A stretch of 53,953 nt of DNA from a virus. Location: positions 1 to 53,953 of the IMG/VR virus record IMGVR_UViG_3300027741_002957; one strand, 5' to 3'. The notes below the pieces were generated by a model. The model searched no databases, was not told where the DNA came from, and saw only the letters and a program-made list of their open reading frames with translations. Made by a program: the position numbers and the translations under genes. Shown here piece by piece: positions 820 to 43,529 of this stretch; positions within the stretch are counted from its first letter, which is position 1, and every line of letters begins with the position of its first letter.

Positions 820-850
820 AGCAGATCTCAAGAAGAAAGGTTCAATATAG

Positions 851-1324
851 ATGATTTACAACGTAAAAAAATATGAATATGTCAATCAGTATTATACTGC
901 TGCTCAGATTGAATCATATTGCGCTGGTGACAACTCTAAATTAGATAAACTTTGGCATTCTGCACAACCAGTGGAAATCACAATAAAGGATTTTATTGAC
1001 CAATGGGAATACGGCAAATATTTGATTAACAGTCCCGACGGATACATACCCGTTGTTGATACTATTATTAAGCAGAAAATAAAGATGTATGAGATAACAA
1101 CAGAATTGGGCAAGTCGTTGACCTGCAGTTATGATCATTATCTACAGGGCCCGTCAGCGGAGTGGATATACGCTCAGAATCTCAGCATTGGAGACAAGAT
1201 ACTAACCAAAGACGGTATAGAACGCATAACCTGTGTGCAAGAATTACCCGGAGACACGACATATGACATTGAAGTAGGACACGAAAATCATAGGTACTAC
1301 ACCAATGGGCTATCTAGCCACAAT
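851..1324 (+). other. Split intein 1, C-part (158 residues)
   Basis: Recognisable Hint blocks are present: a B-like SLTCSYDHYL with the conserved His, GDKILT, an F-like block (YDIEVGHENHRYYTNG) and terminal LSSHN followed by the +1 Ser of SGKS. No homing endonuclease domain is seen. The 31-base spacer to the N-part holds only a ribosome binding site. Confidence 0.82.
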
Positions 1325-2560
1325 AGTGGCAAATCGCTGTTCTTGCAGAACATTAGCCTCAACCTGGTCAAACAGGGTATGAATGTAATCTACATCACAT
1401 TGGAGTTGAGTGAGGAACTTTGTAGCATGCGCATGGACAGTATGTTGAGCGAAGTTCAAACCAAAGAAATCTTTCGCAAGATAGATGAGGTAGAAATACG
1501 TGTAAAACAAGCAGGCAAGCGCAGTGGTTTGCTGCATGTCAAACAGTTACCCCAAGGCAGTACCTGCAATGATATCAAGGCCTATCTCAAGACCTATGAG
1601 ATTGAAACACAACGTAAACCAGATGTTCTAGTTGTAGACTATCTCGATCTATTGTTTCCCAACAACAAGAAAATTGACCCCAGCAACCTATTTGTCAAGG
1701 ACAAGTTTGTCACAGAAGAACTGCGCGGACTAATGGTAGAACGTCAAATGATTGGCATGACCGCCGCCCAGTTGAATCGCTGCCTTTCTACAGATACTGA
1801 GGTAGTTTCAAATGGAGTTAAAACAAAAATCTTAGAAGTTAACGTTGGCGATTGGCTAGATTCATCTGAAGGTCCAGTGCAAATTTTAGAAAAATTGCCT
1901 GTAATTAAACAACCAGTGTTCAAAATCACAACAAAAAGTGGTAAAACTGTGACATGTAGTGCAAAACATAAATTTCCCACCAAATCTGGATTAAAAAGTT
2001 TAGAATCTGGGCTAAAGATTGGCGATTCTTTGTCTGTAGTGATAAACATGTATCAACTTTTTAAAATAGATGACGAAATTACATCAATTGAATATATTGG
2101 AGTTGAAGATACAGTAGATATAAATGTATCTGGAAATAAATTATTTTATGCCAACGAAATTTTAACACACAATTCCTCAGTTCAAGAACAAGAACACGAT
2201 CACAGTCATATTTCGGGTGGTATTTCCAAGATCCAAACGGCGGATAATGTGATTTCTATCTTTGCCAGCGCTGCTATGAAAGAACGTGGTCAGTATCAGG
2301 TGCAGTTTCTCAAGACGCGCTCGTCTAGTGGTGTTGGTAGCAAGGTCAATCTTGGATTTGATCCAAATACCTTGCAGATATTCAACAGTGATGATGACAG
2401 TGCAGCAGTTGTAACCAGCAGTGCCACTGCAGATGTTTTTGCAGATCTCAGAAGGAAGAATTCATCCGCTGCTAAGAAGGCTGATGGCGACCAAAAGTCT
2501 ACAGATTCAACAAAAAGCATCAAAGATCTCAGCGCATTAACAGCACTGGTACGTCGTTAA
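851..2560 (+). CDS. C-intein plus C-terminal DnaB/gp41-like helicase, with an internal mini-intein
   Basis: The ATG is preceded by AAGAAAGG, so this piece is translated on its own, 31 bases after the N-piece and in a different frame. Residues 1-158 are the C-part of intein 1, ending in His-Asn. The helicase resumes at SGKS (residues 159-162), with Walker B-like VLVVDYLDLL near residue 258. A second, contiguous intein (residues 311-441) sits after AAQLNR. The helicase then continues with DHSHISGG and the rest of the RecA-fold core, ending in a Ser/Ala/Lys-rich tail. Two splicing events, one in trans and one in cis, are needed for a working enzyme. The stop overlaps the convergent gene's stop by 3 bases. 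Confidence 0.88.
   Translation: MIYNVKKYEYVNQYYTAAQIESYCAGDNSKLDKLWHSAQPVEITIKDFIDQWEYGKYLINSPDGYIPVVDTIIKQKIKMYEITTELGKSLTCSYDHYLQGPSAEWIYAQNLSIGDKILTKDGIERITCVQELPGDTTYDIEVGHENHRYYTNGLSSHNSGKSLFLQNISLNLVKQGMNVIYITLELSEELCSMRMDSMLSEVQTKEIFRKIDEVEIRVKQAGKRSGLLHVKQLPQGSTCNDIKAYLKTYEIETQRKPDVLVVDYLDLLFPNNKKIDPSNLFVKDKFVTEELRGLMVERQMIGMTAAQLNRCLSTDTEVVSNGVKTKILEVNVGDWLDSSEGPVQILEKLPVIKQPVFKITTKSGKTVTCSAKHKFPTKSGLKSLESGLKIGDSLSVVINMYQLFKIDDEITSIEYIGVEDTVDINVSGNKLFYANEILTHNSSVQEQEHDHSHISGGISKIQTADNVISIFASAAMKERGQYQVQFLKTRSSSGVGSKVNLGFDPNTLQIFNSDDDSAAVVTSSATADVFADLRRKNSSAAKKADGDQKSTDSTKSIKDLSALTALVRR
1781..2173 (+). other. Contiguous mini-intein in the helicase (131 residues)
   Basis: It begins CLSTDTEVV (Cys at 1781) after QLNR and ends LTHN before Ser-Ser at 2174. 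Block B is TCSAKHKFPT. There is no endonuclease domain. From memory, it resembles the split intein Gp41-8 closely over GDWL, GPVQ, PIIKQPVF-like and HKFPTK segments. Gp41-8 is split in two, whereas this copy is one piece. The DNA is visibly more AT-rich than the helicase around it. Confidence 0.85.
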
Positions 2561-9308: not shown

Positions 9309-12300
9309 ATGTATTTGAATCAATTCCAAACTACCGATAGCACAAGGCTGCAGCAGATATTATCAACACTTGACCATGTACATGGGGTAAAAATCAACAT
9401 TGACCTGGCAAATCATCATGCAGTCGCTACCCTTAAAGAAACACAATTGTCATATCAAATTCTGCGTGATAGCATAGTCAACGGCAGCGGCTTCAACAGT
9501 TATCAACAGAACCCGGAATATATCAAAAGCTTGTTGATACTAGAAGCAGTGAAAATCATGTTGACTGAAATTGCTCCAAAGCGTCGCCGCAGCAAAAAAA
9601 TGAACGAATCAACTATGGACAGAAACATGAAAGCCAAACCAACTATCAGCACTCAACTCAGTGATATTGCGTTATCGGTTCCCCAGACCAGTGATGAAGC
9701 AACAGCATTCAGCAACACTCTAAGCAGCATAGCCGATAAAATGGCAGCAAAAGGCACGGCATTTGCCGGCACCGACAGTGCGTTAGACTCGGACGAAAAA
9801 GCCGTCATGGGATGGATTAAATCACTGCCTCGTCCAATACATGTTAATAACATGATTTCCCAAGGTGTAAAACGGTGGGGGCCAATATTGTTGAAAAAAC
9901 GCATGGACACTGTGGCTAGTCTACCCAAGATTGATATGTCAGAAGACCGCAGGCTATCCCCGCAACAGTTAAACAAAATTTCAGCACTGGGACGTGCAAT
10001 GATTGACTACAGCACCAAGACACACAGCAAAGACGAGCGTGAATTGGCAATACTTAATAGTATTTCGCGTGTTGGTGACAAACTGGCCAGCATGGGCACT
10101 GATTTTGGACCAAAAGGTTTGACGGATACGGAGAAGAAAATTGTCAAACTGGCCCAGATGAGGATGAAAACTCATGGAGATCTTACACAGGATCTTGATG
10201 AAGAATTGGAAATAATGACTGCTGAAACGACACGACGTGCCAACCCTGGTATGGACAACATTCATGAAAGCGACACGGTAATAGGACAAGTGTCGAATCG
10301 ACCAAAACTACCAGGCGACGCAACCTTCAGCCAAGCACATCACTATGAATATCAAGCCAGTATGGCACGCAGCGAACTCTATCGCAATGCCAAATATGCC
10401 ATGAGTATGATGAAACAGGTTGACCCCAATGGAGAAGTCCCTCCCTGGATTGCTGCATGCTTGACCAAATCTGCCAACATGCTTGACAAGATCTTTCACT
10501 ATCTCGATTATTACAAGACCTTTGAACCAGATCAATTGCCAGAAGGCATGGACAGTGACATGGAATTGGGCGAGACCAGTGGCAGCATTGCTCGTGAAAA
10601 TCTCATGCTGATTATAGAATACAGCACAAATCTTTTCAATATGATCAAACCAGGTGACAAGTTGGAAGGTTGGGTTGCTATGAAGTTGACTACTGCCAGC
10701 GAATGCATCAGCAGCAGCAAGCACTATATGGATTATGTGCAATTTGAGCAGCATGCAATGGATGATCATTTTGAAGAAGGGCGCAAGGCCAAACGTAGAA
10801 CAATGGCAGAATCACGGCTGTACGAGGAGGAGGACCCAGACAATGAAACACTGGCTCGTGCACAGTTAATTCTCAATGCAAAATCATTAAGCAGCAAAGT
10901 GCAGGATATGGCTGAAGATGTGGCTAAAATGTCTGTAAATGATCTAATGCCGCTGGTTGACAGCATGCGTGCACAGTTTGGACCAGAAGCAGCAACTGGA
11001 TTCAATACCACTGTAAAGACTGCCTTAGATGGATTATTAGAAAACACAACCTCAACCAAAGAAGCCATTGACACAGCAGTAACTACATTACAAGGAGGGG
11101 GAGTACCAGCACAACCAACTGATATAGAACAGGCCACTCCAGAACCTGCTGCAGAAGAACCTGTTGCAGAAGAACCTCCTGCAGAAGAACCTGCTGCTGC
11201 AGACCAAGTAGGCCAAGAGGCATTGGGTCGTGCCAAAAAGCCAATGTCTGAAGGCATGATAAAAAATCTAAAGCGTGCTGCGAGCGGATGGCCATCACTG
11301 GGGGTACCCAAAATTGGTGGAACTGGTGGCAAACCAAAAGATGTTGTGGCCAGGGTAAAGCAGATGAGCGATGATCAACTACAGTCCCTAGCAGATCGCA
11401 ATGATGTAGCAGCTGGTTCGCCAGCTGACCTACAAATCAAAGCCGCGAGGCAAGAACTCCGTCGCCGAAAAACCACACAAAATGAAGCATGGGGGACAGA
11501 AATGCACACAGCCAAAAAAGATATTGGCAAGTGGGACGACTGGACCATTGCTGAATTGAAAGCACGCAAAAAGCAATTGATGCACAAACCAGAACGCAAT
11601 GAAAAAGAGCAGAAGGAAGTTAGACAACTGAATTTTGCTATTCGTGCCAAGCAAAAGGATCATTGGGGTGATGTCAATGAAAATGCCATGACCTGCAATG
11701 AGTGCGGCATGGGCACCTATATGGAAGATGATCATGGCAAGATGTGCTGCAACGAATGTGGTGCCGTTATGATTGCAGAGACTTGGCCGGGCTATAAGAA
11801 AAAAATGGCCGATCAAAAGAAGATCATGAGTCGCACAGACAAGGAATGGAACCGTATAACCAAGATCAACAGTGAACCTCCGGTGGTAGAAGCCATGTTT
11901 GGTAAGAAAATCACCGTTACTCAAGAACCAGGACCATTAGGTGGGCCAGCGGTACCTCCAAACAAGGCCAAGGACAAAGCTGCAACAACCGTACAACAGG
12001 TTGACATTCGTGGCAATCCAATTGAGCCTAGCAAAATTTCCAAAAAATCAACAAAACCAGAAGTTACTCAGATTGATCCAAAAGACATGGCCAAAATGCT
12101 GAAGGAAAAAGCCCCACCGGGTGAGAAGGCTGAGCAATTTATACGTGATCAAAAAGATGTTTTTAAAAAACGCTATGGTAAAAACTGGGAAAGTGTATTG
12201 TATGCCACTGCATGGAAAGAGTTTGGGCCAAAGCACGAAGGGTATATCTCAGCAGTAAAGGCATTAGCCGAAGCAAAGGGATCACTAGCAGGCCTCAAAA

Positions 12301-18118: not shown

Positions 18119-19087
18119 ATGACAACTCAAAAACAGGGTGATATTTTCGTCACCAAGAGAGACGGACACCAAGAACTATTGAACATCGAAAAATGGCAAC
18201 AGCAAATCGCTAAGATTTGTAAAAATGTAGCAGATGTCAGCCAGTCTATGATCGAAATCAAAGCACAGTTACATTTTTATAACAATATCACCACTACCGA
18301 AATCGATAGTATCACACTGCGGGCCATAGTTGATTTGATCGACATTGAGATCAACCCGGTGATTGGCCATACAAATTATCAATATGTTGCTGGTAAACAA
18401 CGCCTGTCAATGCTGCGCAAGGATGTTTATGGTTCCTATGAGGTACCGGATCTCTTGTCAATCGTCAAACGCAATGTAGAGGTAGGTCTCTATACTCCAG
18501 AACTGCTGGAATGGTACTCAGACGATGATTGGCACAAGATGAACGAGATGCTGGATCATGAAAAGGACGAGCAATACAGTTTTGCTGCTATTGAACAGAT
18601 GATTGAAAAATATCTTGTTCGCAACAGGGCAACCAATAAGATCTATGAAACTCCGCAGATTCGCTACATTGTAGCCGCTGCTACTGTTTTCCATAGAGAA
18701 GAACCAAATACGGCGAGAATGCGCTATATCAAAGAATACTACAATGCTGCATCAGATGGTTTGTTTACTCTTGCTACACCTGTGTTGGCTGGCCTTGGCA
18801 CTCCAACTAAACAGTTTTCTAGTTGTGTGCTAATCCGCAGTGACGACAATTTGGATAGTATCTTTGCTTCTGGCGAGATGATGGCCAAGTATGCCAGTAA
18901 ACGTGCTGGGATCGGATTGGAAATAGGTCGACTGCGCCCATTGGGCTCCTCAATTCGCGGTGGCGAAATCATGCATACTGGTATGATACCTTTCTTGAAA
19001 AAATGGTTTGGTGATCTGCGCAGTTGCTGTGTTACCCCAGATACCTGGGTAGAGGTTTTAGATGAGGATAATTCTATAGATAAATGA
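18119..19087 (+). CDS. nrdA: Ribonucleotide reductase alpha subunit, N-terminal piece plus short N-intein
   Basis: The first of three pieces of class Ia NrdA, the enzyme that makes dNDPs from NDPs. Residues 1-90 form an ATP-cone-like regulatory domain. The catalytic barrel follows, with FSSCVLIRSDDNLDSI holding the equivalent of E. coli Cys225. After DLRSC the intein starts at residue 304 (CVTPDTWVEVL) and the frame stops 19 residues later. The protein must be joined to the product of 20212-21192 through trans-splicing. The enzyme also needs the third piece at 21238. AGAGGA precedes the ATG. Confidence 0.9.
   Translation: MTTQKQGDIFVTKRDGHQELLNIEKWQQQIAKICKNVADVSQSMIEIKAQLHFYNNITTTEIDSITLRAIVDLIDIEINPVIGHTNYQYVAGKQRLSMLRKDVYGSYEVPDLLSIVKRNVEVGLYTPELLEWYSDDDWHKMNEMLDHEKDEQYSFAAIEQMIEKYLVRNRATNKIYETPQIRYIVAAATVFHREEPNTARMRYIKEYYNAASDGLFTLATPVLAGLGTPTKQFSSCVLIRSDDNLDSIFASGEMMAKYASKRAGIGLEIGRLRPLGSSIRGGEIMHTGMIPFLKKWFGDLRSCCVTPDTWVEVLDEDNSIDK
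19028..19084 (+). other. Split intein 3 (NrdA), N-part (19 residues)
   Basis: Cys at 19028 follows Arg-Ser-Cys of NrdA. Only block A (CVTPDTWVEV) and a few acidic residues precede the stop. The C-part lies 1.1 kb away beyond an endonuclease gene. Confidence 0.8.
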
Positions 19088-19105
19088 CAGTTTTTCGTAT
19101 ACCAG

Positions 19106-19113
19106 CATAAATA
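19106..19113 (+). promoter_or_regulatory. Late promoter-like octamer inside the broken nrdA
   Basis: CATAAATA, 17 bases before the endonuclease start at 19131, so the mobile gene can be transcribed apart from nrdA. Confidence 0.6.
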
Positions 19114-19130
19114 ATATGGAGGTATACGAA

Positions 19131-20225
19131 ATGCTAAATTATCTACAAGAATCATATAATGGATCACAAACTAATATGCTAATGAACTCTGCTTATTATT
19201 GCTATACAATTAAAGACACGGAAACAGGAAAGTTTTACTCTGGTTCTCGCGGAGTTGAAGGTAGTGGTATGCACGATTTGTTAATAAAGTATTTTACCAG
19301 TTCAACAGTGATTGATTTTAAGGAAAAACTAAAAAAATTCCCAGATTTGTTTGAATATAGAGTTGAATACTTTAAAACTAGAAGCGATGCATTCGCAGCA
19401 GAAAAAATATTCCATCAAAAGCATCAAGTTGGTAAGAATCCTGATTTTTTAAATTCTCTTACAGCAGGGGGATCAAACTGTGGGGCGGGTTCTGTGTTAT
19501 GCAAAGACAACTGTGGCAATACTTATCGAGTAACGGTAGAAGAATTCGCTACAGGAAAACATCAGCACGTTACGAAAGGTATGATGAATATACGCACAGT
19601 AACAGGTATTAAAAAAATATATACCACAGACTTTGATCCTAATACTCAATTGACTGAATTTAACGATTACGTTCTGGCATTAGACACAACTACTGGAAAA
19701 ACTTTCAGAATCCCAAAGACTACTTTTAGGTCTAACCCTAATTTTGTCGGCATTACTAAAGGGAAAGTAGCGGCATATGATACTGTTAATAAATGTAAAA
19801 AATTGGTGTCACAGAATGAATTCAACAACTCAAATGGCAGATATGTTGGTAATACATTTGGGTTAGTTCCGGTTATAGACAGAGACACCGGAGAAAAGAA
19901 ACTAGTAGCAAAAGAAAAATATGATAAAAATGTATATAAACATCATAATACCGGAAATATTGTAGTATATTCCATTGCTGAAAGAAAAGTTGTCACAATA
20001 AGCAAGGAAGAATATGAGACAAATTCTACCAACTACGCCAATTTAAGTACTAAGGTTTTCTATAAAGTAGATGGTAAGTTTTTTAAATCAAAAGATCTAA
20101 TGAATGAATACTACAAAACAACTAGAGGTAAAACGGTATTAAAAGTCAGTCAATTTGAGATGTCCGATAGGTTTACTGATATCAAAACTTTAACAAGAGA
20201 AGAACACGAAAATGGTAAAAACTAA
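19131..20225 (+). CDS. GIY-YIG family homing endonuclease
   Basis: Start at ATG 19131 is chosen because GGAGG precedes it by 8 bases; an in-frame ATG at 19116 lies upstream of that site. Residues about 22-42 hold the GIY-YIG-type core (YYCYTIKD, then GKFYSGSRG), followed by a Glu/Lys helix (RSDAFAAEKIFHQKH) and an FLNSL segment as in the family. Residues about 140-350 carry several copies of a 35-40-residue DNA-binding-like module (V-x-D-x-x-TG-x-x-K-x-V-x-K-E-x-Y). It sits between the two halves of a split intein in nrdA and overlaps the C-half gene by 14 bases. The DNA is much more AT-rich than nrdA, a sign of transfer. Confidence 0.8.
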   Translation: MLNYLQESYNGSQTNMLMNSAYYCYTIKDTETGKFYSGSRGVEGSGMHDLLIKYFTSSTVIDFKEKLKKFPDLFEYRVEYFKTRSDAFAAEKIFHQKHQVGKNPDFLNSLTAGGSNCGAGSVLCKDNCGNTYRVTVEEFATGKHQHVTKGMMNIRTVTGIKKIYTTDFDPNTQLTEFNDYVLALDTTTGKTFRIPKTTFRSNPNFVGITKGKVAAYDTVNKCKKLVSQNEFNNSNGRYVGNTFGLVPVIDRDTGEKKLVAKEKYDKNVYKHHNTGNIVVYSIAERKVVTISKEEYETNSTNYANLSTKVFYKVDGKFFKSKDLMNEYYKTTRGKTVLKVSQFEMSDRFTDIKTLTREEHENGKN

Positions 20226-20616
20226 AAAGATTCAAATTAAAGATCTAACCGCAGGTATGAAAATTAAAACTAAAAATGAGAACGGCGAAATAGTGTTTAA
20301 AACAGTAACTAATAAATGGGATACTACTGTAAATCAACACGACCAAGTTCGATTAGAATTTGAAAATGGTGTGACATTGAATTGCTCAGTGAATCACCCT
20401 ATTATGGTGCTACATGAGTCGGGATCGTTCTTGCAAAAGAAGCCAACGGATCTTACAAATGAAGATCGCGTTCTTACTGAAAATGGATTTACTCGCTTGC
20501 TGGTTGCAGATTTTGAACAGCAAAACGACACCAGATACATTGATATTACAGTAGACGACACCCATACATTTTTTGCTTCGAATAGCAGCCATGGTCCTAT
20601 GGTCTTGACTCACAAC
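20212..20616 (+). other. Split intein 3 (NrdA), C-part (135 residues)
   Basis: It starts with its own ATG, 14 bases inside the endonuclease gene, and ends His-Asn before the +1 Ser of SQGG. Recognisable Hint blocks are present. No endonuclease domain is inside the protein; that function is in the separate 19131 gene. Confidence 0.82.
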
Positions 20617-21192
20617 AGCCAAGGAGGGATCCGGAACGCAAGTGCTACTGTATTTTATCCAATTTGGCATCTTCAGTTTGATGATCTTATTGTTCTTAAG
20701 AATAACCAAGGCACAGAAGAAACTAGGGTACGACATATGGACTACGGAGTGGTACTTTCTGCCTTCTTCTGGAGGAGATTTAAAAACAAAGAAAATATAA
20801 CATTCTTTGATCCAAATGAAGTACCTGACTTGTACGAAGCATTTTATAAAGATATCGCCGCTTTTGAAAAACTGTATGTAAAATATGAAAAGCGTAAAGA
20901 CTTACGTACTAAAACAATGGCAGCTGAAGATGTATTCAAAGGCGGCATATTAAAAGAGCGCACAGATACTGGACGCATTTATCTTGTGTTTATCGACAAC
21001 GTACAGAATCAAGGTCCATTTGATCCCAACTTCCACACCATTTATCAAAGTAATCTTTGTTTGGAGATTTTGTTGCCAACTGTTGCAATGGGTACTACAA
21101 AGAAGAAGTTTATTAAGGTTAAAAAAGAAGTAGCAAGTGACTTTTTACTAAACAAACCAGAGCAATTTGTTAAACTGAAGAAACTGAAATAG
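20212..21192 (+). CDS. nrdA: C-intein plus middle piece of NrdA with a basic C-terminal tail
   Basis: Residues 1-135 are the intein C-part, with a block B-like LNCSVNHPIMVL, an F-like DITVDDTHTFFASN and terminal LTHN. NrdA resumes at SQGGIRNASATVFYP and runs to QSNLCLEILLPT, which holds the equivalents of E. coli Asn437, Cys439 (the thiyl radical site) and Glu441. It then departs into a 36-residue tail not found in ordinary NrdA, with 11 Lys and 3 acidic residues. The rest of NrdA is a separate gene 45 bases downstream. Confidence 0.88.
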   Translation: MVKTKKIQIKDLTAGMKIKTKNENGEIVFKTVTNKWDTTVNQHDQVRLEFENGVTLNCSVNHPIMVLHESGSFLQKKPTDLTNEDRVLTENGFTRLLVADFEQQNDTRYIDITVDDTHTFFASNSSHGPMVLTHNSQGGIRNASATVFYPIWHLQFDDLIVLKNNQGTEETRVRHMDYGVVLSAFFWRRFKNKENITFFDPNEVPDLYEAFYKDIAAFEKLYVKYEKRKDLRTKTMAAEDVFKGGILKERTDTGRIYLVFIDNVQNQGPFDPNFHTIYQSNLCLEILLPTVAMGTTKKKFIKVKKEVASDFLLNKPEQFVKLKKLK

Positions 21193-21237
21193 TTAGTGGA
21201 TTGGTGGAAATATTTTAACACATTTTGGAGTTGAAGA

Positions 21238-22254
21238 ATGATTGAATTATATGAAGAAATAGAATATCTACCCGAAGAACTGGATGATGAATATGAATAT
21301 TATGAGGTGGATGAAGATGCCGCGAGGATTAGTTTGTGTACGCTTGGTAGTATCAACTGGGGAGCCTTCCGTAATCCTGAAGACATGCGTCGTGCTTGCC
21401 GTATTCTACAGCGTAGCCTATGCAATATCTTAGATTATCAAGACTTCCTATCAATCCAGAGTAAATTATCTAACGATGAAATCAGCCCACTAGGTATTGG
21501 TATAACCAATTTAGCCTACTGGCATGCCAAGCGTAACCTAAAGTATGGAGAAAAGGACGCACTCCAGGATGTCAAGACATGGATGGAACATCAAGCGTTT
21601 TACCTGACAGAGGCTACTGTTGAATTAGCCCGAGAGCGCGGTGCATGCATCGATAGTGAAAAAACACGATATGGGCAAGGAATATTTCCTTGGGAATTAA
21701 GAGCCAAGGCTGTTAATGACTTAGCAGACTTTACACCAGAACTTGATTGGGAAACACTCCGTACTAATATGAGACAGTATGGAGTCCGCAATGCAACAGT
21801 AATGGCCATTGCTCCAGTTGAAAGCAGTAGTGTTGTTATAAACAGCACTAATGGAATTGAATTACCTATGAGCTTGATCAGCACAAAGGAAAGCAAAGCA
21901 GGATCACTCACACAAGTTGTACCAGAGTACACTAAACTTAAAAACAAGTATCAACTAATGTGGGATCAAAAGGACTGCGACGGATATCTCAAAACCGCTG
22001 CGGTTTTGGCAGCTTATGTTGATCAAAGCATTAGTACCAATACTTTTTATAATCCTGCTCATTTCGCAGATCGTAAAGTGCCGGCGACATTGGTTGCTAA
22101 GAACTTGATGCAAGCGCATTTGTGGGGCCTCAAGACCATATACTACTCACTAGTGAATAAACAAGGATCAAAAGCCGACGCTGGAGAAGCACCTGCTATG
22201 CTAGAACCAATTGACTTTGATGATGAGTCTGGATGTGAGTCGTGTAAATTATAG
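21238..22254 (+). CDS. nrdA: Ribonucleotide reductase alpha subunit, C-terminal piece with an acidic N-terminal tail
   Basis: The first 29 residues are strongly acidic (14 Asp/Glu, no Lys or Arg). NrdA sequence then resumes at ISLCTLGSINWGAF, which holds the equivalent of E. coli Cys462, continues through DYQDF and GIGITNLAYW, the PVESSSVVINSTNGIE active-site loop, and ends in CESCKL, the redox-shuttling cysteine pair. A TTGGAG ribosome binding site precedes it. There is no intein at this break, so the piece must associate non-covalently with the middle piece. Without the extra tails the three parts add up to about 769 residues, close to E. coli NrdA (761). Confidence 0.9.
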   Translation: MIELYEEIEYLPEELDDEYEYYEVDEDAARISLCTLGSINWGAFRNPEDMRRACRILQRSLCNILDYQDFLSIQSKLSNDEISPLGIGITNLAYWHAKRNLKYGEKDALQDVKTWMEHQAFYLTEATVELARERGACIDSEKTRYGQGIFPWELRAKAVNDLADFTPELDWETLRTNMRQYGVRNATVMAIAPVESSSVVINSTNGIELPMSLISTKESKAGSLTQVVPEYTKLKNKYQLMWDQKDCDGYLKTAAVLAAYVDQSISTNTFYNPAHFADRKVPATLVAKNLMQAHLWGLKTIYYSLVNKQGSKADAGEAPAMLEPIDFDDESGCESCKL

Positions 22255-25718: not shown

Positions 25719-26656
25719 ATTATAAACCTTTCCAATATAGCGGCACCACAAACTTCCTACGTTGCGAAAGGTACTATGATCAACCCATAGCTGTGTTGGG
25801 ATTACCAGTTGACAGTGGTACCTCATATCGCAGCGGTACTAGACATGGGCCTGCTGGCATACGTGCAGCCAGTGCCATGTTGACTGACGGACATCTTGCT
25901 GGTTATGATGTTGATCTCTATCCATGGTTGGGCGATTATGGAGATCTACCATTGCCAACTGGCAACACGCAAGCGGTATTGGCTATGATCCAAGCACGCA
26001 TGACGGACTTGACCAGGACCAACACACATGTGGTGGCCCTGGGTGGAGACCACCTTATAACCCTGCCAATTCTACGCAGCCTTAAAGAAAAGCATGGCAA
26101 GATTGCTGTTGTGCATTTCGATGCACACTGTGATACATGGAATGATCACTTCGGTGAAACCCATGGGCATGGTACATGGCTACGCCATGCCATTGATGAG
26201 GATCTAGTGCAGGCTGATCACACCATCAGCATTGGCATCCGTAGCCCCGCTGATGAAGACTCTCGGCATTATCTGGTCTCAAAAGGTGGTATCACACTGT
26301 CGGCTTACGAAGCAACAGTGGTCCAACCACGAGACATGGCCGGACTGATTGCCCGCAGGGTTGGCAATATGCCTGCCTATCTCAGCCTTGATATCGACTG
26401 CCTTGATCCGTCGCAGGCTCCTGGTACAGGCACTCCAGAGATAGGTGGCCTGTCTAGTATTTGGCTTCGTGAAGTCATGGATAATATGCAGGGCATTTCA
26501 TGGATAGGCATGGATTGTGTAGAAGTATCACCAGCCTACGATCATGCTGAGATTACATCATTGGCTGCAGCGACATTTTGTCTGCAGTATATATCCAAAA
26601 TTGCCATGGCCATGGACACACAACTTAGATTGAAAAGACTTTCAAAACCCGCATAA
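25715..26656 (+). CDS. speB: Agmatinase (ureohydrolase family)
   Basis: Hydrolyses agmatine to putrescine and urea in bacteria. The start at 25715 overlaps the upstream stop and gives 313 residues, the normal length; the frame is open further upstream but that part is a shadow. All six manganese ligands are visible: His113 in GGDH, Asp136, His138 and Asp140 in DAHCD, and Asp226 and Asp228 in DIDCLD. An EVSPAYD segment follows as in the family. The ureohydrolase fold also includes guanidinobutyrase-type enzymes, so the substrate is inferred. A SpeD-like protein at 40076 makes a polyamine role more likely. Confidence 0.85.
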   Translation: MNYKPFQYSGTTNFLRCERYYDQPIAVLGLPVDSGTSYRSGTRHGPAGIRAASAMLTDGHLAGYDVDLYPWLGDYGDLPLPTGNTQAVLAMIQARMTDLTRTNTHVVALGGDHLITLPILRSLKEKHGKIAVVHFDAHCDTWNDHFGETHGHGTWLRHAIDEDLVQADHTISIGIRSPADEDSRHYLVSKGGITLSAYEATVVQPRDMAGLIARRVGNMPAYLSLDIDCLDPSQAPGTGTPEIGGLSSIWLREVMDNMQGISWIGMDCVEVSPAYDHAEITSLAAATFCLQYISKIAMAMDTQLRLKRLSKPA

Positions 26657-27755: not shown

Positions 27756-27968
27756 ATGTCTGAAGAATTTTACAAGGTGCGTATGCATGACTGGGAAAAA
27801 GGCATGCTGAAATTTGTGGATACATTTTTTTCGTCATTTGATGAAGCATTGACCTATGCGTCAGAGTTGTATTGTGATAATTTTAAAATTTTTGATTCTA
27901 ACAACAATCTCAGACACAGCAGCCATGGCAAGAAACAACAGCATCAAGATTGGCCTAAATATGCTTGA
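27756..27968 (+). CDS. Small hypothetical protein (70 residues)
   Basis: ATG behind GATGGAGG. The pattern SSFDEALTYASELYCDNFKI followed by FDSNNNLRHS resembles small proteins often seen in T4-related phages, where a short alpha/beta domain ends with an N-N-x-L-x-H-S turn. Function unknown. The stop lies beside the promoter of the noncoding RNA: the -35 box (27965-27970) begins within the stop codon region. Confidence 0.6.
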   Translation: MSEEFYKVRMHDWEKGMLKFVDTFFSSFDEALTYASELYCDNFKIFDSNNNLRHSSHGKKQQHQDWPKYA

Positions 27969-27994
27969 CATAGGGACTTTATGATTTTTATAAT
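27965..27994 (+). promoter_or_regulatory. Consensus sigma70 promoter of the tmRNA-like gene
   Basis: TTGACA at 27965-27970 and TATAAT at 27989-27994 with an 18-base spacer. Both boxes match consensus exactly, the only such pair found in the window. The predicted start is near 28001. Confidence 0.85.
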
Positions 27995-28258
27995 AGAACT
28001 GATGCTGTTTGACGGAAGGTGAATGAATTGTACAGTACCGGAGGGGCAGTACCTCCGCATCTCCACCAGTAAGCACATTGGTACCCATAGGTGTTAGAAA
28101 TATGGGGTAATTGCATTAACACTCGTCCGGTGTGCTTGCTCGTGGGGATGAAACAGGATCGCCTGGCAATATGAAGACCAACTTTAGGTATTGGGTAAGA
28201 CACGACTCACAATCAGTTCAAAAAACAAAAATGACAATGACAACATTGCATTTGGAGA

Positions 28259-28276
28259 CATGCTGCTAGCAGCATG
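28259..28276 (+). other. 18-bp perfect palindrome over the tag stop codon
   Basis: CATGCTGCTAGCAGCATG covers the last codons of the tag frame and its stop. A stem here would match tmRNA helix P5, which normally carries the tag end. Confidence 0.65.
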
Positions 28277-28310
28277 AGCTCTTGGGCTTACAGGACGCCT
28301 AGAAACAGAA

Positions 28311-28330
28311 GAAGGCCCGCAAGGGCCTTC
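28311..28330 (+). terminator. Hairpin at the end of the tmRNA-like gene
   Basis: GAAGGCCC and GGGCCTTC pair around a GCAA tetraloop. No T-run follows, so it may be a 3' structure rather than a classic terminator. Confidence 0.55.
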
Positions 28331-28487
28331 ACCTATGATCACATGAACATTTGAGACAAAAAGATGATCATTGTGGAAAAAATTTTCATGTATAAACAGA
28401 CCTGAGATGCAGCAAGAAGATTTTGGGTTTTTCCCCCAACAACATCACTTCAATATTGCGTCCGGACAGGGTTTCCATTTATATTTG

Positions 28488-28962: not shown

Positions 28963-28992
28963 AGTCATGTCGATACACAGTTGGGAATCATA

Positions 28993-30807
28993 ATGGCTAA
29001 AAAATCAAGCGAAGAAATTGTTAAATTAACCGACTACGACCATCATCGCTTGCGGACGGAAATGTATCTAGGCAGCCGCAATATTCACAGTCAAACAGTC
29101 ATAAATTGGAATGGTAGTCAGCTGATTGCAGAAGAAGTTGCTTGGACGCCGGCCGCATATTCTGCCTTTCGAGAGATATTTGACAATGCTCTGGATGAAG
29201 TTGTCGGTCATGGACATGGATCTCGCATTGATATCACCTACGATCCCAGTACTTTGACATTTGGTGTGTCAGATGATGGCCGTGGTATTCCAATTGACTG
29301 GGATGAAAATGAAAAAATGCACAAGGCTACCTTGGCACTGACGCAGGCTCGTGTTGGCAGGAATTTTGGCACACGTGAAGAAGTGCGTGGTACCAACGGT
29401 GTTGGTTCTTCTGTAGTTGTCAGTTGTTCGCGTTCATTCACCATCGACATCAAACGAGATGGCAAACGATTCCAACAGGAATTTAAAGAATGTACAGAAC
29501 TCATGCCAGATCTCAACATTGGTGAGCCGCGTATCTTCAACAGTACTATGAAATCGGGAACTGAAATCAATTTCACTCTCAGTTCGGTGGTTTTTCCCAA
29601 GGCCAAGATACCGTTGTCGTTTGTCAAGGCCAGGGTATTTGAAGTAGCTGCCAATCATCCTAAAATACGCTTTAGTTTCAATGGTGACAGAGTCGTAGTG
29701 GCCAAAAGCCTCGACAAGACTATGTTTGCCAACAATAATCCCGTGATCATCAGCATACAGGAAGAAAAGTTTCACAGCAATTACTACTTGATTCCGGGAT
29801 TTGGCTCCGAAGGCGAATTTGTGCACAGTACAGTTAACGATATACCTGCATTCAATGGCGGCCAACACATTGATGTGTTTAAAAGGTTGTTTTTCAGTGG
29901 CATGCTAAAAGCCATGGAACGTGAAAGCAAGCGTCGAGGACTGACTCCAAACCGCAGTGATATATCAGAAGGTCTATTGATTTACAACACCACTGTGATG
30001 CATGCTCCAAACTTTGACAGTCAAAGCAAAACACGCTTGATCAATGACGAGGTAGATCGTTGGATCAAAGCCAGTTTAGAAGATGAAAACACATTCAAAA
30101 ACATCCTACGTACTCATAAGGAGTGGTTGGATGAGATCTATGCTCGCTGTGCAGCACGTACTCAAAAACGCGATGATGCAGATATTGCCAAGGCCAATCG
30201 CAAACTGCTGCGCAACAAGGTCCCAAAACTTCTAGATGCCAACGGCAAGGATAGAAGCAAATGTATACTGTTGATATGCGAGGGTGATTGTCTAGCAGAA
30301 GATACAGCTATCGCAATATTTGAAGATGGAAGATTTTGTAGCAAAAAAATTAAAGACATCCAAATAGGTGATTTAGTTTTAACGCATAAAGGCAGAATTA
30401 AACCGGTATGTAATAAACAGGCAAAAATAACAGACGGAATTGCTATTACAACATCATCTGGAAAAACATTAAAAATAAGTCTTGAGCATAAAATACCTGT
30501 TTATAACACACAACTTAACCAATATGAAATTGTAAAAGGCAAAGATTTAGACAAGTCTAAACATAAACTGTTTTCCTCTATAATTGATATGGAGTCTACA
30601 TTTTTTGAAATCGTCGCTGTAAATGATTATGATGATGGAAAATTTAATAAATCAATTTCTTTTACAAATGGTATAATTAATCAAACCTGTATAACGTCCG
30701 AAAATCATTTATTCTCTGTTTTAAATAAATGCACTGCGACCATTGAAAAGGTAGCTGCTAAAAATCTAGACATTGATATCCATTTACTAATGGCACATAA
30801 TTTGTAG
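28993..30807 (+). CDS. DNA topoisomerase II large subunit (gp39-like), N-terminal part plus N-intein
   Basis: ATG 28993 is chosen (GGGA upstream) over TTG 28981. Residues 1-430 hold the GHKL ATPase (REIFDNALDEV with the metal Asn, DDGRGIPI, GTNGVGSSV) and the transducer domain. The frame reaches LLICEGD, the start of the TOPRIM motif EGDSA, and then an intein begins with Cys433 and runs 172 residues to the stop. The rest of the TOPRIM domain is in the 30893 frame. T4 itself has this subunit split in two genes (39 and 60), though by a different mechanism. Works with the gp52-like subunit at 31964. Confidence 0.9.
   Translation: MAKKSSEEIVKLTDYDHHRLRTEMYLGSRNIHSQTVINWNGSQLIAEEVAWTPAAYSAFREIFDNALDEVVGHGHGSRIDITYDPSTLTFGVSDDGRGIPIDWDENEKMHKATLALTQARVGRNFGTREEVRGTNGVGSSVVVSCSRSFTIDIKRDGKRFQQEFKECTELMPDLNIGEPRIFNSTMKSGTEINFTLSSVVFPKAKIPLSFVKARVFEVAANHPKIRFSFNGDRVVVAKSLDKTMFANNNPVIISIQEEKFHSNYYLIPGFGSEGEFVHSTVNDIPAFNGGQHIDVFKRLFFSGMLKAMERESKRRGLTPNRSDISEGLLIYNTTVMHAPNFDSQSKTRLINDEVDRWIKASLEDENTFKNILRTHKEWLDEIYARCAARTQKRDDADIAKANRKLLRNKVPKLLDANGKDRSKCILLICEGDCLAEDTAIAIFEDGRFCSKKIKDIQIGDLVLTHKGRIKPVCNKQAKITDGIAITTSSGKTLKISLEHKIPVYNTQLNQYEIVKGKDLDKSKHKLFSSIIDMESTFFEIVAVNDYDDGKFNKSISFTNGIINQTCITSENHLFSVLNKCTATIEKVAAKNLDIDIHLLMAHNL
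30289..30804 (+). other. Split intein 4 (topoisomerase), N-part (172 residues)
   Basis: It begins CLAEDTAIAIF. A first block B-like region is KTLKISLEHKIPVYN; a second region, TSENHLFSVLN with later KNLDIDIHLLM, also looks like block B. It ends AHNL and stop. At 172 residues it is longer than a usual N-part (about 100). The DNA is AT-rich relative to the topoisomerase gene. Confidence 0.78.
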
Positions 30808-30816
30808 CTGAAAAAA

Positions 30817-30856
30817 ACAATTATTTGGATCTATTATGATAGATCCAAATAATTGT
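30817..30856. other. 16-bp hairpin between the topoisomerase pieces
   Basis: ACAATTATTTGGATCT and its complement flank an 8-base loop. On the minus strand the stem is followed by a T-run, as in a terminator; on the plus strand it is followed by A. It sits where an endonuclease gene would be expected in a fractured intein gene and may be a remnant. Confidence 0.55.
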
Positions 30857-30892
30857 AAAAATACAATATCTAATAGTAGGTAAGGTACAACA

Positions 30893-31027
30893 ATGAATAT
30901 AAATGAAAGTTTGTTTTTAATGGAAGATATAATAGATATCTCTCCTATAGGGAAAACAAACATGTATGATATACAAGTTATGGATGACGAAACATTTGTA
31001 TTATCAAACGGACTGCTAAGTCATAAT
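30893..31027 (+). other. Split intein 4 (topoisomerase), C-part (45 residues)
   Basis: Contains the F-like MYDIQVMDDETFVLSNG and terminal LLSHN before +1 Ser. The length is the classical size for a C-part, unlike the long C-parts of the other two split inteins here. Confidence 0.85.
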
Positions 31028-31666
31028 AGCGCAAAAAGCATGGTGGCCGCCGTTCGCCATCCCGAAATCCATGGTGCTCTGCCACTGCGTGGCAAAATCC
31101 TCAATGTCAGAGGAGAGTTGCCAAAGACCATTATTGAAAACCAAATCATCAGCGATATCATGACTTCACTGGGCGTTGGTCTAGGCCAACCTGCCAATCG
31201 GCGAGACATGCGGTATGGCAGTGTCTATCTAGCAGCAGATCAAGATCCCGACGGAGCCAATATTACTGCACTGTTGGTCAATTTTTTCTATCTACATTGG
31301 CCAGAATTGTTTGACCCAAAACTCCCTCCGGTATTTTATGTGTTCCAGACACCGTTCATCATACAGGAAAAGGGTAAGAAAAGAACCTACTGGTATGCCG
31401 ATGACTATCATCTCTACAATGCAGATGATTGGAAAGGGGCTCCAAAACCAACTCGTGCCAAGGGTTTGGGCAGTCTAGAAGAAATTGATTGGATACACAG
31501 TCTTTCTAATCCACGATTAATCCCCCTGACAGACGACGGAGCACTGTCAGAAGCCCTTGATTTGATTTTCAATGCAAGTCGCGCAGATGATCGCAAAGCC
31601 TGGGTAGCACTGAGTGGTGAGACTGCTGACACAACAATGTCCGGAAATCAGGCAGGACAAAACTAG
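30893..31666 (+). CDS. C-intein plus C-terminal part of topoisomerase II large subunit
   Basis: ATG behind TAAGG, so translated independently. Residues 1-45 are the intein C-part ending LLSHN. The topoisomerase resumes at SAKSMVAAVRHPEIHGALPL, giving EGD-SA when joined, and includes the metal-binding DQDPDG of the TOPRIM domain. The joined exteins would be about 644 residues, near the T4 gp39 plus gp60 total of about 676. The C-terminal 40 residues are acidic and Ala-rich. Its stop is followed directly by the next ATG. Confidence 0.9.
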   Translation: MNINESLFLMEDIIDISPIGKTNMYDIQVMDDETFVLSNGLLSHNSAKSMVAAVRHPEIHGALPLRGKILNVRGELPKTIIENQIISDIMTSLGVGLGQPANRRDMRYGSVYLAADQDPDGANITALLVNFFYLHWPELFDPKLPPVFYVFQTPFIIQEKGKKRTYWYADDYHLYNADDWKGAPKPTRAKGLGSLEEIDWIHSLSNPRLIPLTDDGALSEALDLIFNASRADDRKAWVALSGETADTTMSGNQAGQN

Positions 31667-37230: not shown

Positions 37231-37659
37231 TTAACGTCTACGCAAAGCATAGATATGAACAGTGTATGCACCGGCGGTTCCTGTAGTGTCTAATATAGGC
37301 TCGACCTTGCGCACAAATGAATAATTTGCAATCCATTCTGGCAGTTCATCGGCAATCTTACCGCTTTTACCGCATATAATCACCACGCTCCTAGAGCCGT
37401 TGATGTTGTGTTCCTCGAGGAATTGTCCGGTGGCATTGAATGCCTGTTGTATTGTCAGGCCATGCAGATCAAGACTTGATCTCAGTGTTTGGTCATGTCC
37501 TTTTTTTGGACGAAAACTTTCCTGCGGCTTTTTTTGGAGGTTTTCAATATAAGCATTCCACACTCGCTGATCCTCTGGTTTTACTTGGTCCTGCGAGTTC
37601 CAGTGTGTAACTGATCTGCCTGACAGAGAACGAGATTTGAGTTGTTTTGCCGCTGACAT
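37231..37659 (-). CDS. Smr (MutS2-type) domain protein
   Basis: ATG 37659 has AAGG at 9 bases; the frame begins at ATG 37668, which is too close to that site. Residues about 64-140 form the Smr domain: SLDLHGLTIQQAFNATGQFL with the DLHG motif, VVIICGKSG, and the closing GTAGAYTVHI. The N-terminal 60 residues are basic and include VKPEDQRVWNAYIENL, a common lead-in. Smr domains nick or bind DNA or RNA; recent work links some to ribosome rescue at collided ribosomes. It overlaps the next leftward gene by 116 bases. Confidence 0.8.
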   Translation of the reverse strand: MSAAKQLKSRSLSGRSVTHWNSQDQVKPEDQRVWNAYIENLQKKPQESFRPKKGHDQTLRSSLDLHGLTIQQAFNATGQFLEEHNINGSRSVVIICGKSGKIADELPEWIANYSFVRKVEPILDTTGTAGAYTVHIYALRRR

Positions 37660-37825
37660 GGTTTTCATCCTTGATTATGCTTACATGAAGCCCTATCCCA
37701 GCGGCATCAGCCAGCAACGCATTGAGGAGGTCCACTGTTTGGACCAATTGACTGGTCAATGATGTGCAGTGTCGCAGGGTAACCAAAAGGTCTTCTGGTT
37801 TAGAGGAGTTTGTCGTAGTTTCCAT
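37544..37825 (-). CDS. Hypothetical protein overlapping smr (93 residues)
   Basis: A frame in a different register whose last 116 bases overlap the smr N-terminus. The first 60 residues look like a regular helix (LRHCTSLTSQLVQTVDLLNA, LLADAAGIG), then a beta-like part. No ribosome binding site is clear. It may be a real gene upstream of smr with an unusually long overlap, or only its N-terminal part may be expressed as a leader. Confidence 0.4.
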   Translation of the reverse strand: METTTNSSKPEDLLVTLRHCTSLTSQLVQTVDLLNALLADAAGIGLHVSIIKDENHVSGKTTQISFSVRQISYTLELAGPSKTRGSASVECLY

Positions 37826-40075: not shown

Positions 40076-40489
40076 TTGAAACCCAGTGCACACCTACACC
40101 TTCTTATTACGGCTGAGATACAGAACCCGCCGGGCCCAGAAGATTGCGAAAAAATCAATGAGTTCATGCGAGGCATGGTTAAACATGTCCGTATGAACAT
40201 CATGCTTGAACCAAACACAGCATATTGCAGTGATCTCGGTAATGAAGGTATAACCAGCGTAGTAATACTAACAACCAGTCATTGTTCCATGCACATATGG
40301 AACCTGCCAGCCCCAGCACCAAGCATCATGCAATTTGATCTATATAGTTGCGCTGCATTTAGTGTCGATGAGGTATTGGCATACATTGCTGCACATTTCA
40401 AACTTGTCAGTGTAAAATACAAATTTTTAGATAGAGAAAACGGTTTTATCGAGTTAGATCACGGCACCACCTTGTTTAACAAACACTGA
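40076..40489 (+). CDS. S-adenosylmethionine decarboxylase-like protein (SpeD-like)
   Basis: TTG start, 137 residues, the right length for the small bacterial SpeD type. The core VVILTTSHCSMHIWNLP aligns with the family's autocleavage region (ESH-x-S-x-H-x-W-P), and FDLYSCAAFSVDEVLAYIAA with the D-x-x-x-C region that carries the catalytic Cys. The residue before the would-be pyruvoyl Ser is Thr rather than the usual Glu, so self-processing may be altered or lost. SpeD makes decarboxylated AdoMet for spermidine; the agmatinase at 25715 would supply putrescine. Confidence 0.6.
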   Translation: MKPSAHLHLLITAEIQNPPGPEDCEKINEFMRGMVKHVRMNIMLEPNTAYCSDLGNEGITSVVILTTSHCSMHIWNLPAPAPSIMQFDLYSCAAFSVDEVLAYIAAHFKLVSVKYKFLDRENGFIELDHGTTLFNKH

Positions 40490-41725: not shown

Positions 41726-42957
41726 CAATTTATCATCATTGTAGTTTTTGCGAAAAAACACAACAGCAGATTAAAAAATTAATTGCAGGTCCAGACGTTT
41801 ATATTTGCAATGAATGTGTTAACCTATGTTATGACCTTATCAAGGAAGAACCTGCTAAAATCATACCACAAGACGAACTAACTCCACAACAGGTCACAAG
41901 TTATCTTGATGAATATATAGTTGGACAGGAAAAAGCCAAAAAGACACTGTCAGTGGCCGTATACAACCATATCAAACGCATCAATAATCCTGTGATCGAC
42001 GGTGTTGAAATAGAAAAAAGCAATATGTTGTTTATTGGTGGTTCAGGCACTGGCAAAACATATTTGATACAGACTGTGGCCAAAATTGTCAATGTACCAT
42101 TGGCCATCGTTGACGCTACCAGCTTAACCGAAAGCGGCTACGTTGGTTTGGATGTAGAAGATGCCATTTCTAAACTCTATCAAGCAGCTGATCAAGACAT
42201 TGAAAAAACCAAGTGCGGCATTGTCTACATAGATGAAATTGACAAAAAAGGGCGCAAGTCAGAAAACACCTCGGTAACACGAGACGTCAGTGGCGAAGGC
42301 GTTCAACAGGCACTGCTGAAAATGATTGAAGGTTGCGATGTAAAAATAATGCCCAATGGCGGTAGGAAGAATCCCAACGGAGACTTCATCACAATTAATA
42401 CCAAAAATATACTATTCATCGTAGGTGGAGCCTTTGAAGGTCTTGACAAAATAATCGAAAAGCGACAAACTCAAAATACAACAGGTGTAGGTTTTGGCTC
42501 AAAAATCAAAGATTCTACCAACACCAAGGGCAATTACGATTTAATCAAAACTGTGCGTGGCGATGACATGGTAAAATTTGGGATGATCCCAGAACTAATT
42601 GGTCGACTGCCAATTATTGTCACATTTGAAGATCTTGACGAATCTGCATTGATTAGGATATTGACTGAACCAAAAAATGCTATCATAAAACAGTTTCAAA
42701 AAATGTTTGCTCTTGACAGCATCAATCTTATCTTTGCACCAGACAGTTTGCAGGCAATATCTTCAATGGCAATTGAGATGAAAACCGGAGCCAGGGGACT
42801 GCGTAGCATAGTTGAAAACCTGTTGCTTGACCTGCATTTTTCCCTCCCGCAGATGTCTAAGAATGGAGTTAAAAAAATTATAATATCTAAGGAAACAGTA
42901 GAAAACATGAAAGAACCAGTGCTGGTTTATGATCAAAACAAGGATTCAATACTTTGA
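41716..42957 (+). CDS. clpX: ClpX-like AAA+ unfoldase
   Basis: A 413-residue protein covering the full ClpX: a zinc-binding domain (Cys9, Cys12, Cys31, Cys34), Walker A GGSGTGKT, pore loop SGYVGLDVED, Walker B VYIDEIDK, RDVSGEGVQQALLKMIEG and sensor 2 GARGLR. The loop that contacts ClpP normally reads IGF; here it is VGFG (TTGVGFGSK), so docking on host ClpP is plausible. ClpX unfolds substrates, including tmRNA-tagged proteins ending in LAA, and feeds them to ClpP. No clpP is seen. It may also redirect host ClpP to new targets. Confidence 0.9.
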   Translation: MAITIYHHCSFCEKTQQQIKKLIAGPDVYICNECVNLCYDLIKEEPAKIIPQDELTPQQVTSYLDEYIVGQEKAKKTLSVAVYNHIKRINNPVIDGVEIEKSNMLFIGGSGTGKTYLIQTVAKIVNVPLAIVDATSLTESGYVGLDVEDAISKLYQAADQDIEKTKCGIVYIDEIDKKGRKSENTSVTRDVSGEGVQQALLKMIEGCDVKIMPNGGRKNPNGDFITINTKNILFIVGGAFEGLDKIIEKRQTQNTTGVGFGSKIKDSTNTKGNYDLIKTVRGDDMVKFGMIPELIGRLPIIVTFEDLDESALIRILTEPKNAIIKQFQKMFALDSINLIFAPDSLQAISSMAIEMKTGARGLRSIVENLLLDLHFSLPQMSKNGVKKIIISKETVENMKEPVLVYDQNKDSIL

Positions 42958-43529
42958 GTGGGCATTGGCATAATGATCAACGTCGCAGTCAACGACGTGC
43001 AGAAGATCCAATCAAGGCCAGTATAGTGGCCAACGAGCGCATCAAACATCCTGAAGTAAGATTAGTAGACGAGCAGGGTCAACAGATAGGTATTGTCCCT
43101 ATCAAACAAGCCATGTGGCAGGCACGCAATCTAGGTCTCGACCTAATTGAAATCACCGCAGATGCTGTGCCACCTGTGGTTAGGATAGTAGATCTCAACA
43201 AATGGATCTACAATCTTCGCCAAGAAAAAAAGAAGAAAGAGCGAAAAGCTAGAGAGAATGCTGTGGTCATTAAGGAAATACAACTGCGGCCAGTAACAGA
43301 CAAGCATGACATTGAAACAAAACAGGGGCATGCTCGCGAATTCCTAGCTGACAACAACAAGGTCAAGGTGGTGATCAAATTCCGTGGCCGTGAGTTGAGT
43401 TTCAAAGAAAAGGGATTTGAGATCATGGATACCTTTATCAAAGGTCTCGATGCTTGCAAGTTGGAAAAGACGCCAGAAATGAACGGCCGTACCATAATGG
43501 CCATACTAGCACCAAATGGCAAAAATTGA
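42954..43529 (+). CDS. infC: Translation initiation factor IF-3
   Basis: TTG start overlapping the ClpX stop. The 191-residue protein has both IF-3 domains: N-terminal (VANERIKHPEVRLVDEQGQQ, then PIKQAMWQARNLGLDLIEIT), a Lys-rich linker helix (LRQEKKKKERKARE), and C-terminal (EIQLRPVTDKHDIETKQGHA, FRGRELSFKEKGFEIM). Full-length compared with E. coli (180). It checks start-codon/initiator tRNA pairing and splits ribosomes; a phage copy could bias initiation. The non-ATG start recalls the AUU start used in host infC autoregulation, but many genes here use GTG or TTG. Confidence 0.9.
   Translation: MSGHWHNDQRRSQRRAEDPIKASIVANERIKHPEVRLVDEQGQQIGIVPIKQAMWQARNLGLDLIEITADAVPPVVRIVDLNKWIYNLRQEKKKKERKARENAVVIKEIQLRPVTDKHDIETKQGHAREFLADNNKVKVVIKFRGRELSFKEKGFEIMDTFIKGLDACKLEKTPEMNGRTIMAILAPNGKN

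Follow-up and report, generated by a model that had tools for sequence, protein, structure and literature searches.

Does the DNA upstream of a phage topoisomerase gene encode a ribosome-rescue RNA of the phage's own, and, if so, do all parts of that gene share one history? The window (that is, the whole stretch of DNA analysed here) comprises the 53,953 bases of a virus record classed as linear, a class that often denotes a fragment, and the named phage collection contains no close DNA relative of it. A first-pass annotation, made from the letters alone, had proposed that the phage encodes a tmRNA in circularly permuted form, preceded by a consensus promoter, and had suggested covariance models and ARAGORN as checks.

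A putative permuted tmRNA gene and its parts

The covariance models bore out this proposal. In a Rfam search of the whole window, RF01849 (alpha_tmRNA) matched positions 27961-28319 of the plus strand with 79.2 bits (cut-off 50, E 6.6e-20), and RF04321 (tmRNA_permuted) matched 28001-28277 of the same strand with 74.8 bits (cut-off 47, E 1.4e-12). ARAGORN called no gene anywhere in the window, and no further Rfam family rose above its cut-off across the full window, where neither program found a tRNA. Among the 13 loci that share the core pattern, ARAGORN calls a tmRNA in 6 and Rfam sees one in 12. The predicted fold of 28001-28277 has a z of -4.74, and none of 200 shuffles was equally low. As judged from sequence, we consider it very probable that the locus encodes a functioning two-piece tmRNA, circularly permuted and of the alphaproteobacterial type, in a phage related to the jumbo rhizobiophages. 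This identification draws on the promoter, the permuted order of the parts, the paired acceptor with G3-U70 and an encoded CCA, the T-arm, the model-aligned P2, a tag frame ending in LLAA and conservation in relatives (Table 1). Against it we counted the missing ARAGORN call, the GAC resume codon, the extra T-stem pair, the absence of SmpB, a loose link to ClpX and the fragmentary nature of the window.

Table 1. Parts of the putative tmRNA gene and neighboring phage genes in the window
Feature	Position	Strand	Basis
Sigma-70-type promoter, TTGACA (27965-27970), 18 nt, TATAAT (27989-27994)	27965-27994	+	Exact match of both boxes
Acceptor-side piece, 5' part, including P2 strands 28001-28005, 28017-28020, 28029-28031 and 28033-28035	28001-28038	+	RF04321 alignment
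T-arm, 6-bp stem CGGAGG/CCUCCG, loop GGCAGUA	28039-28057	+	Model alignment and stem parsing
Acceptor 3' strand CATCTCC (28058-28064), discriminator A (28065), encoded CCA (28066-28068)	28058-28068	+	Stem parsing
Intervening sequence (ITS), 75 nt, 13-bp closing helix (28069-28081 with 28127-28139) and two interleaved stems (possible pseudoknot)	28069-28143	+	Comparison with two other phage contigs (69/75 identical to each)
Acceptor 5' strand GGGGATG (28144-28150; G3 opposite U70) and D-loop-like segment	28144-28162	+	Model alignment and stem parsing
P2 3' strands 28163-28165 (with 28033-28035), 28166-28168 (with 28029-28031), 28177-28180 (with 28017-28020) and 28188-28192 (with 28001-28005)	28163-28192	+	RF04321 alignment
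Tag frame DNDNIAFGDMLLAA, resume codon GAC, stop TGA (28275-28277)	28233-28277	+	Alignment with relatives
Coding piece, 3' end	28278-28319	+	RF01849 alignment
Hairpin GAAGGCCC-GCAA-GGGCCTTC, no U run after it; possible end or processing signal	28311-28330	+	Sequence
DNA topoisomerase large subunit, TTG start 28981 (ATG 28993), intein-like insertion after about residue 435	28981-30807	+	Homology; frequent downstream neighbor of the tmRNA in relatives
Smr-domain protein	37231-37668	-	Domain match
ClpX, full length, with zinc finger, Walker motifs, GYVG pore loop and VGF loop	41716-42957	+	Homology and motifs
Translation initiation factor IF-3, overlapping the clpX end	42954-43529	+	Homology

Like the genes described by RF01849 and the merged RF04321, the locus has an acceptor 3' strand that precedes its 5' partner, an ITS separating the two, a discriminator A, a GGCRGUA-type T-loop, a G3-U70 acceptor, a P2 helix and an NDN-type tag, and it aligns across the whole of the RF01849 model from the promoter-like start to the 3' end. 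It differs from the alphaproteobacterial genes in its 6-bp T-stem, its GAC resume codon and its score, which lies below most of theirs, and its 75-nt ITS compares with 4 to 47 nt in the bacterial genes that could be parsed, although longer spans exist among other bacterial matches. Within the acceptor, the pairing that had been proposed between CATCTCC and GGGGATG was found in full (7/7 pairs, with G3-U70 among them), and the hairpin with a 7-base loop noticed beside it corresponds to the T-arm. The loop itself had been taken as noncanonical and as the sign of a divergent form; this did not hold, because GGCRGUA is normal for the type (the RF01849 consensus is GGCgGUA, and GGCGGTA or GGCAGTA occurs in almost every bacterial sequence that could be parsed). 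Instead, the oddity lies in the T-stem, whose extra pair is shared with L175 only among 41 phage sequences. Of the “9 further pairs” said to close the ITS, the helix is there but is longer than described. Both models align P2 and flag few of its pairs as nonstandard (in the RF04321 alignment one, the first of 28017-28020); the earlier guess of 28018-28030 with 28167-28179 came close, although the strands in that alignment are not identical to it.

The tag was placed by comparison with L150 (identical in sequence to L154), the relative closest to the window in the outer parts of the gene. Because L150 reads GCC at the aligned codon, in matching surroundings, the tag is taken to start at GAC 28233 and by homology would lack a leading N. 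The open frame that had been reported to run to a TGA inside a palindrome is indeed present, and its end lies in a predicted hairpin, but the tag begins at GAC rather than at AAT. GAC encodes Asp where Ala is usual at the resume codon; the codon specifies Ala or Val in the other relatives, with GAC in none of them apart from L019, which is ambiguous and can be read either way. The tag ends in LAA in 35 of 42 distinct sequences and in LLAA in the window.

Could the locus be a decaying or nonfunctional tmRNA copy retained by chance? Its having been missed by ARAGORN fits with this, as do the two atypical features, the GAC resume codon and the extra T-stem pair. However, the 7 acceptor pairs, G3-U70, CCA, the T-stem, the LLAA tag frame and the exact consensus promoter are all intact, and an identical copy of the gene is carried by a second contig, IMGVR_UViG_3300027747_003130 (locus L002). 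We regard decay as very improbable. The identical copy also argues against a sequencing error, although the two contigs may have a common source.

Relatives and covariation

Comparison with relatives gives stronger evidence than the fold. Counting the window and its twin, the set comprised 55 phage tmRNA loci, one of which (L157) falls below the cut-off. Dropping L030, which is cut by a contig end, left 54 loci with 42 distinct sequences; pairing was counted without L030 and without L157, whose tRNA-like part is displaced. With L157 set aside, the full 7-pair acceptor is found in 39 of 41 distinct sequences. Of the 133 cells in the 19 distinct acceptor stems, 128 pair, whereas 2000 shuffles averaged 95.8 paired cells and never exceeded 110; all 5 unpaired cells come from L165 (3 pairs) and L175 (6 pairs). 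Both acceptor strands vary with pairing kept, while G3-U70 is fixed in 19 of 19 stems.

Matches above the RF04321 cut-off were found in 19 of the 27 records selected by topoisomerase, in 23 of 50 selected by ClpX (50 of 80 loci searched) and in 12 of 13 loci selected by pattern. In 18 of the 27 topoisomerase-selected loci, the 6 kb preceding the topoisomerase gene contain a tmRNA in the same orientation, at a distance of 294 to 1275 nt in 14 and of about 5 to 5.8 kb in 4 (one of these being the below-cut-off L157). The other 9 have no tmRNA inside the flank, in some cases because the contig ends. Such an arrangement is what one might expect if the element were not a tmRNA but a structured leader for the genes that follow. 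It is hard to see, however, why a leader should score above the cut-offs of two tmRNA covariance models, conserve tag frames and keep the alanine identity pair, or why it should lie about 5 to 5.8 kb from the gene in 4 loci and among tRNA genes in L018 and L255. We consider a leader extremely improbable.

By raw count, the best promoter-like site upstream of the tmRNA agrees with the consensus at 10 or more of its 12 positions in 28 of 43 distinct sequences, one of which is that of the window. In 19 of the 43, TATAAATA, which we take to be the T4 late-promoter box, occurs upstream of the tmRNA, often in the -10 position downstream of a TTGAC -35 box. It is possible that promoters bearing it are used both early and late.

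Two further observations concern incomplete matches. In L157 and L158 (record G023, 10327-11003), the acceptor-side and coding-side parts match separately, about 430 nt apart and both below the cut-off; this would fit a broken gene as well as a long ITS. In L182 (record G071, 94527-94658), a partial second permuted-tmRNA match of 51 bits lies beside the full one in the same record, whose ClpX frame is 777 aa long, leaving room for an insertion.

Evidence for a mosaic gene and a shared ITS

To compare its regions, we divided the gene into outer parts (P2 and everything past the D-like loop) and inner parts (the T-arm, the acceptor and the D-like loop). The window and L150 are 84% identical in the outer parts and 63% in the inner parts, with an ITS of 75 nt in the former and 5 nt in the latter. 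With L018 (contig 3300032271_002267) and L255 (contig 3300010885_072879), the outer parts of the window are 60% and 61% identical, respectively, whereas its ITS is identical to each at 69 of 75 positions (92%); over the acceptor 5' strand and D-like segment, the window and L018 are identical at 18 of 18 positions. L018 and L255 compared with each other are 80% identical in the outer parts and at 67 of 75 positions in the ITS. When 16 window proteins were compared with the stretches around these loci, there was one weak match (the helicase, to L013, which shares its contig with L018) and no match to L255.

Further mosaic cases were found in L144 (against L139, L141 and L145) and in L175 (against L146 and L167). 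With L165 dropped from the mosaic comparisons, outer identity exceeded inner identity by at least 0.10 in 10 of 820 phage pairs but in 0 of 528 pairs of alphaproteobacterial genes, a control of 33 tmRNAs (28 of them from the 30 best-scoring of 142 genomes) that favors conserved tRNA-like domains because it was picked by score; only 1 of the 528 bacterial pairs has the outer parts ahead by any margin. Beyond the three mosaic cases, four weaker phage pairs (outer identity 0.62 to 0.70) show the same reversal.

By these comparisons the tmRNA gene of the window is a mosaic, and the simplest reading is that a contiguous acceptor-ITS-acceptor hairpin has been exchanged between phages, in either direction. 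The mosaic suggests a consequence of the permutation, namely, that the acceptor and ITS can be exchanged en bloc with every pair kept. We are evenly divided on a broader proposal: that permutation makes acceptor-ITS-acceptor one contiguous, self-pairing cassette that phages swap, and that the 75-nt ITS (89 to 92% identity across three phage contigs; a pseudoknot is possible), which is better conserved than the mature RNA, may be a functional or mobile RNA element. Across the acceptor, the closing helix and the possible pseudoknot, 98 of 99 cells pair (99.0%), while slid versions reach at most 49.5%. For the pseudoknot, covariation was equalled by shuffles in 202 of 500 trials, and it is called possible because three sequences cannot prove it. 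The mosaic gene, the cassette exchange and the shared ITS are what is new relative to the known kind of gene; a targeted literature search at title level found no cassette exchange, shared ITS or recombination in permuted tmRNA.

The ITS appears to have a narrow distribution among the sequences searched. A search of 289 bacterial genomes, for which no positive control exists, yielded no relatives of it, and an ITS model run against 85 loci returned only its three building sequences, together with weak matches to the reverse strands of those three. With a less strict pattern 31 loci were retrieved, and in the 30 tested with the ITS model (L002, the twin of the window, being left out) the element was found only in L013 and L255; in 13 of the others the match is confined to a fragment, no longer than 26 nt, surrounding the search word, and the remaining 15 have no match with an E of 1 or less. 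A known ribozyme or riboswitch was also considered for the ITS and rejected, since no Rfam family matched at E up to 1 other than the tmRNA models and one chance match on the opposite strand outside the ITS.

At the other extreme, six distinct relatives (L149, L150, L152, L156, L180 and L019) have an ITS of only 2 to 5 nt between the encoded CCA and G1, so that a single cut by RNase P, followed by trimming, might be enough. Such short spacers are not a phage speciality, as bacteria share them (e.g., 4 nt in Commensalibacter). In L144, L146, L150, L160, L176 and L180, GGCRGTA is replaced by tRNA-like T-loops (of the TTCAA, TTCGA, TGCAA and TGCGA types), and cassettes with such loops might derive from real tRNA genes.

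Gene neighborhood and possible roles

If the gene works as proposed, it would be transcribed by host RNA polymerase, RNase P and 3'-end nucleases would excise the 75-nt ITS, and host AlaRS would charge the product with alanine. Host SmpB would then deliver the tmRNA to ribosomes stalled on broken mRNA, where the predicted tag would be added, and the tagged product would pass to ClpXP, in which the phage ClpX could participate. The likeliest gain for the phage would be that ribosomes are freed and amino acids returned during destruction of host mRNA. These steps are modeled on the known pathway as outlined in parts of PMC11915505 and PMC4131195.

Host SmpB is presumed here, and the RNA would be host dependent, because no SmpB gene was found in the 55 phage records. 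The same absence means that the phage RNA must compete for host SmpB, and it could therefore act as a decoy that titrates SmpB or competes with the host tmRNA, lowering host rescue. There is a reported precedent: such a role has been proposed for the RNA of mycobacteriophage DS6A, which consists of the tRNA-like domain only (described in sections of PMC4131195 and PMC11915505). A decoy, however, would have no need of a full tag frame, and this has been kept, with LAA ends in most distinct sequences. We consider a decoy role unlikely.

Another possibility starts from the gene content of the window. Smr proteins have a nuclease role at collided ribosomes. The window encodes Smr, ClpX and IF-3 (as well as Hsp20), and one can envisage a dedicated phage route for rescue and degradation, in which Smr cuts mRNA at collided ribosomes, the phage tmRNA tags the products and the phage ClpX degrades them. 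The window ClpX keeps the Walker A GTGKT, YIDEID, GYVG and RKSEN motifs and the VGF loop, with RKN in place of the RKH of aligned bacterial chains. IF-3 was found in 21 of 32 records, and in each of these 21 no more than about 2.5 kb separates it from the ClpX zinc finger; Smr was found in 17 of 32. ClpP was present in 10 of 32 records and was not found in the window. Several findings nonetheless count against such a route. SmpB is missing from it, clpX lies 13 kb from the tmRNA, and relatives of ClpX (293 records) and IF-3 (71 records) occur in many other phages. Moreover, the complete genome of Atu_ph07 has ClpX, IF-3, Smr and ClpP with no permuted tmRNA, and the 518-kb record G034 has a tmRNA, ClpX and ClpP, while IF-3 and Smr were not found in it. 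ClpX was found in 28 of the 55 records, a set partly chosen by ClpX, and three tmRNA records of considerable size have no ClpX match (G038, 216 kb; G008, 162 kb; G002, 119 kb). The link between the tmRNA and ClpX is thus loose, and we find a dedicated route doubtful, if conceivable. A single genome fragment with a rescue RNA, ClpX, IF-3 and Smr makes phage trans-translation testable as a set.

The locus is a well-supported added case of a phage carrying its own ribosome-rescue RNA. The first-pass annotation had called a permuted tmRNA in a T4-related phage apparently unusual, which overstates the matter: in the portion of PMC9004378 used here, 18,146 phage genomes yielded 133 unique tmRNA structures, of which 53 are two-piece, 50 of these 53 coming from marine or aquatic samples. 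The same portion describes the T4-like Methylophilales phage Melnitz and related marine phages, which likewise encode a two-piece tmRNA of alphaproteobacterial affinity; an early promoter was proposed for the Melnitz ssrA, and benefits to the phage similar to those considered above, such as ribosome recycling, were suggested. Melnitz differs in that its ssrA has a predicted glutamine riboswitch, whereas Rfam finds no riboswitch around the window tmRNA, and the window phage belongs to a different group. Closer in setting is the Sinorhizobium jumbo phage AP-J-162, for which the part of PMC11242549 that we draw on lists one tmRNA (its Table 1) and places clpX adjoining IF-3 and topoisomerase genes; there, ClpX is tied to DNA replication and not to the tmRNA. 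The kind of gene found in the window is thus already known from published two-piece phage tmRNAs, that of a T4-like phage included (PMC9004378), and a jumbo rhizobiophage with a tmRNA and the clpX, IF-3 and topoisomerase neighborhood has been published too (PMC11242549), as far as these excerpts go. Phage-encoded tmRNAs have also been described in mycobacteriophages and Bacillus phage G (in a section of PMC4131195).

The window topoisomerase has its best named matches in Sinorhizobium phage Phosso (PV764938; 51% identical) and Atu_ph07 (49%), and the ClpX proteins of Phosso and the window are 53% identical. Phosso, too, has a ClpX-IF-3 pair near its topoisomerase gene and a permuted tmRNA (113 bits; L017 1501-2103, which is PV764938 349596-350198, minus strand) over which no feature is annotated; it differs in having a 410-nt ITS and in the distance of about 28 kb between the tmRNA and the topoisomerase gene. 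As to the tmRNAs of the mycobacteriophages and Bacillus phage G, we assume that these are standard one-piece genes.

Two features of the surrounding genes are also worth recording. Intein-like insertions seem to split the replicative helicase, the ribonucleotide reductase large subunit and the topoisomerase large subunit (window positions 187-2560, 18119-22254 and 28981-31666, respectively), with a Pfam intein domain named in the helicase frame only. Furthermore, the window contains an arginase-family gene (25850-26656) and an S-adenosylmethionine decarboxylase-like gene (40076-40489), which possibly serve polyamine metabolism.
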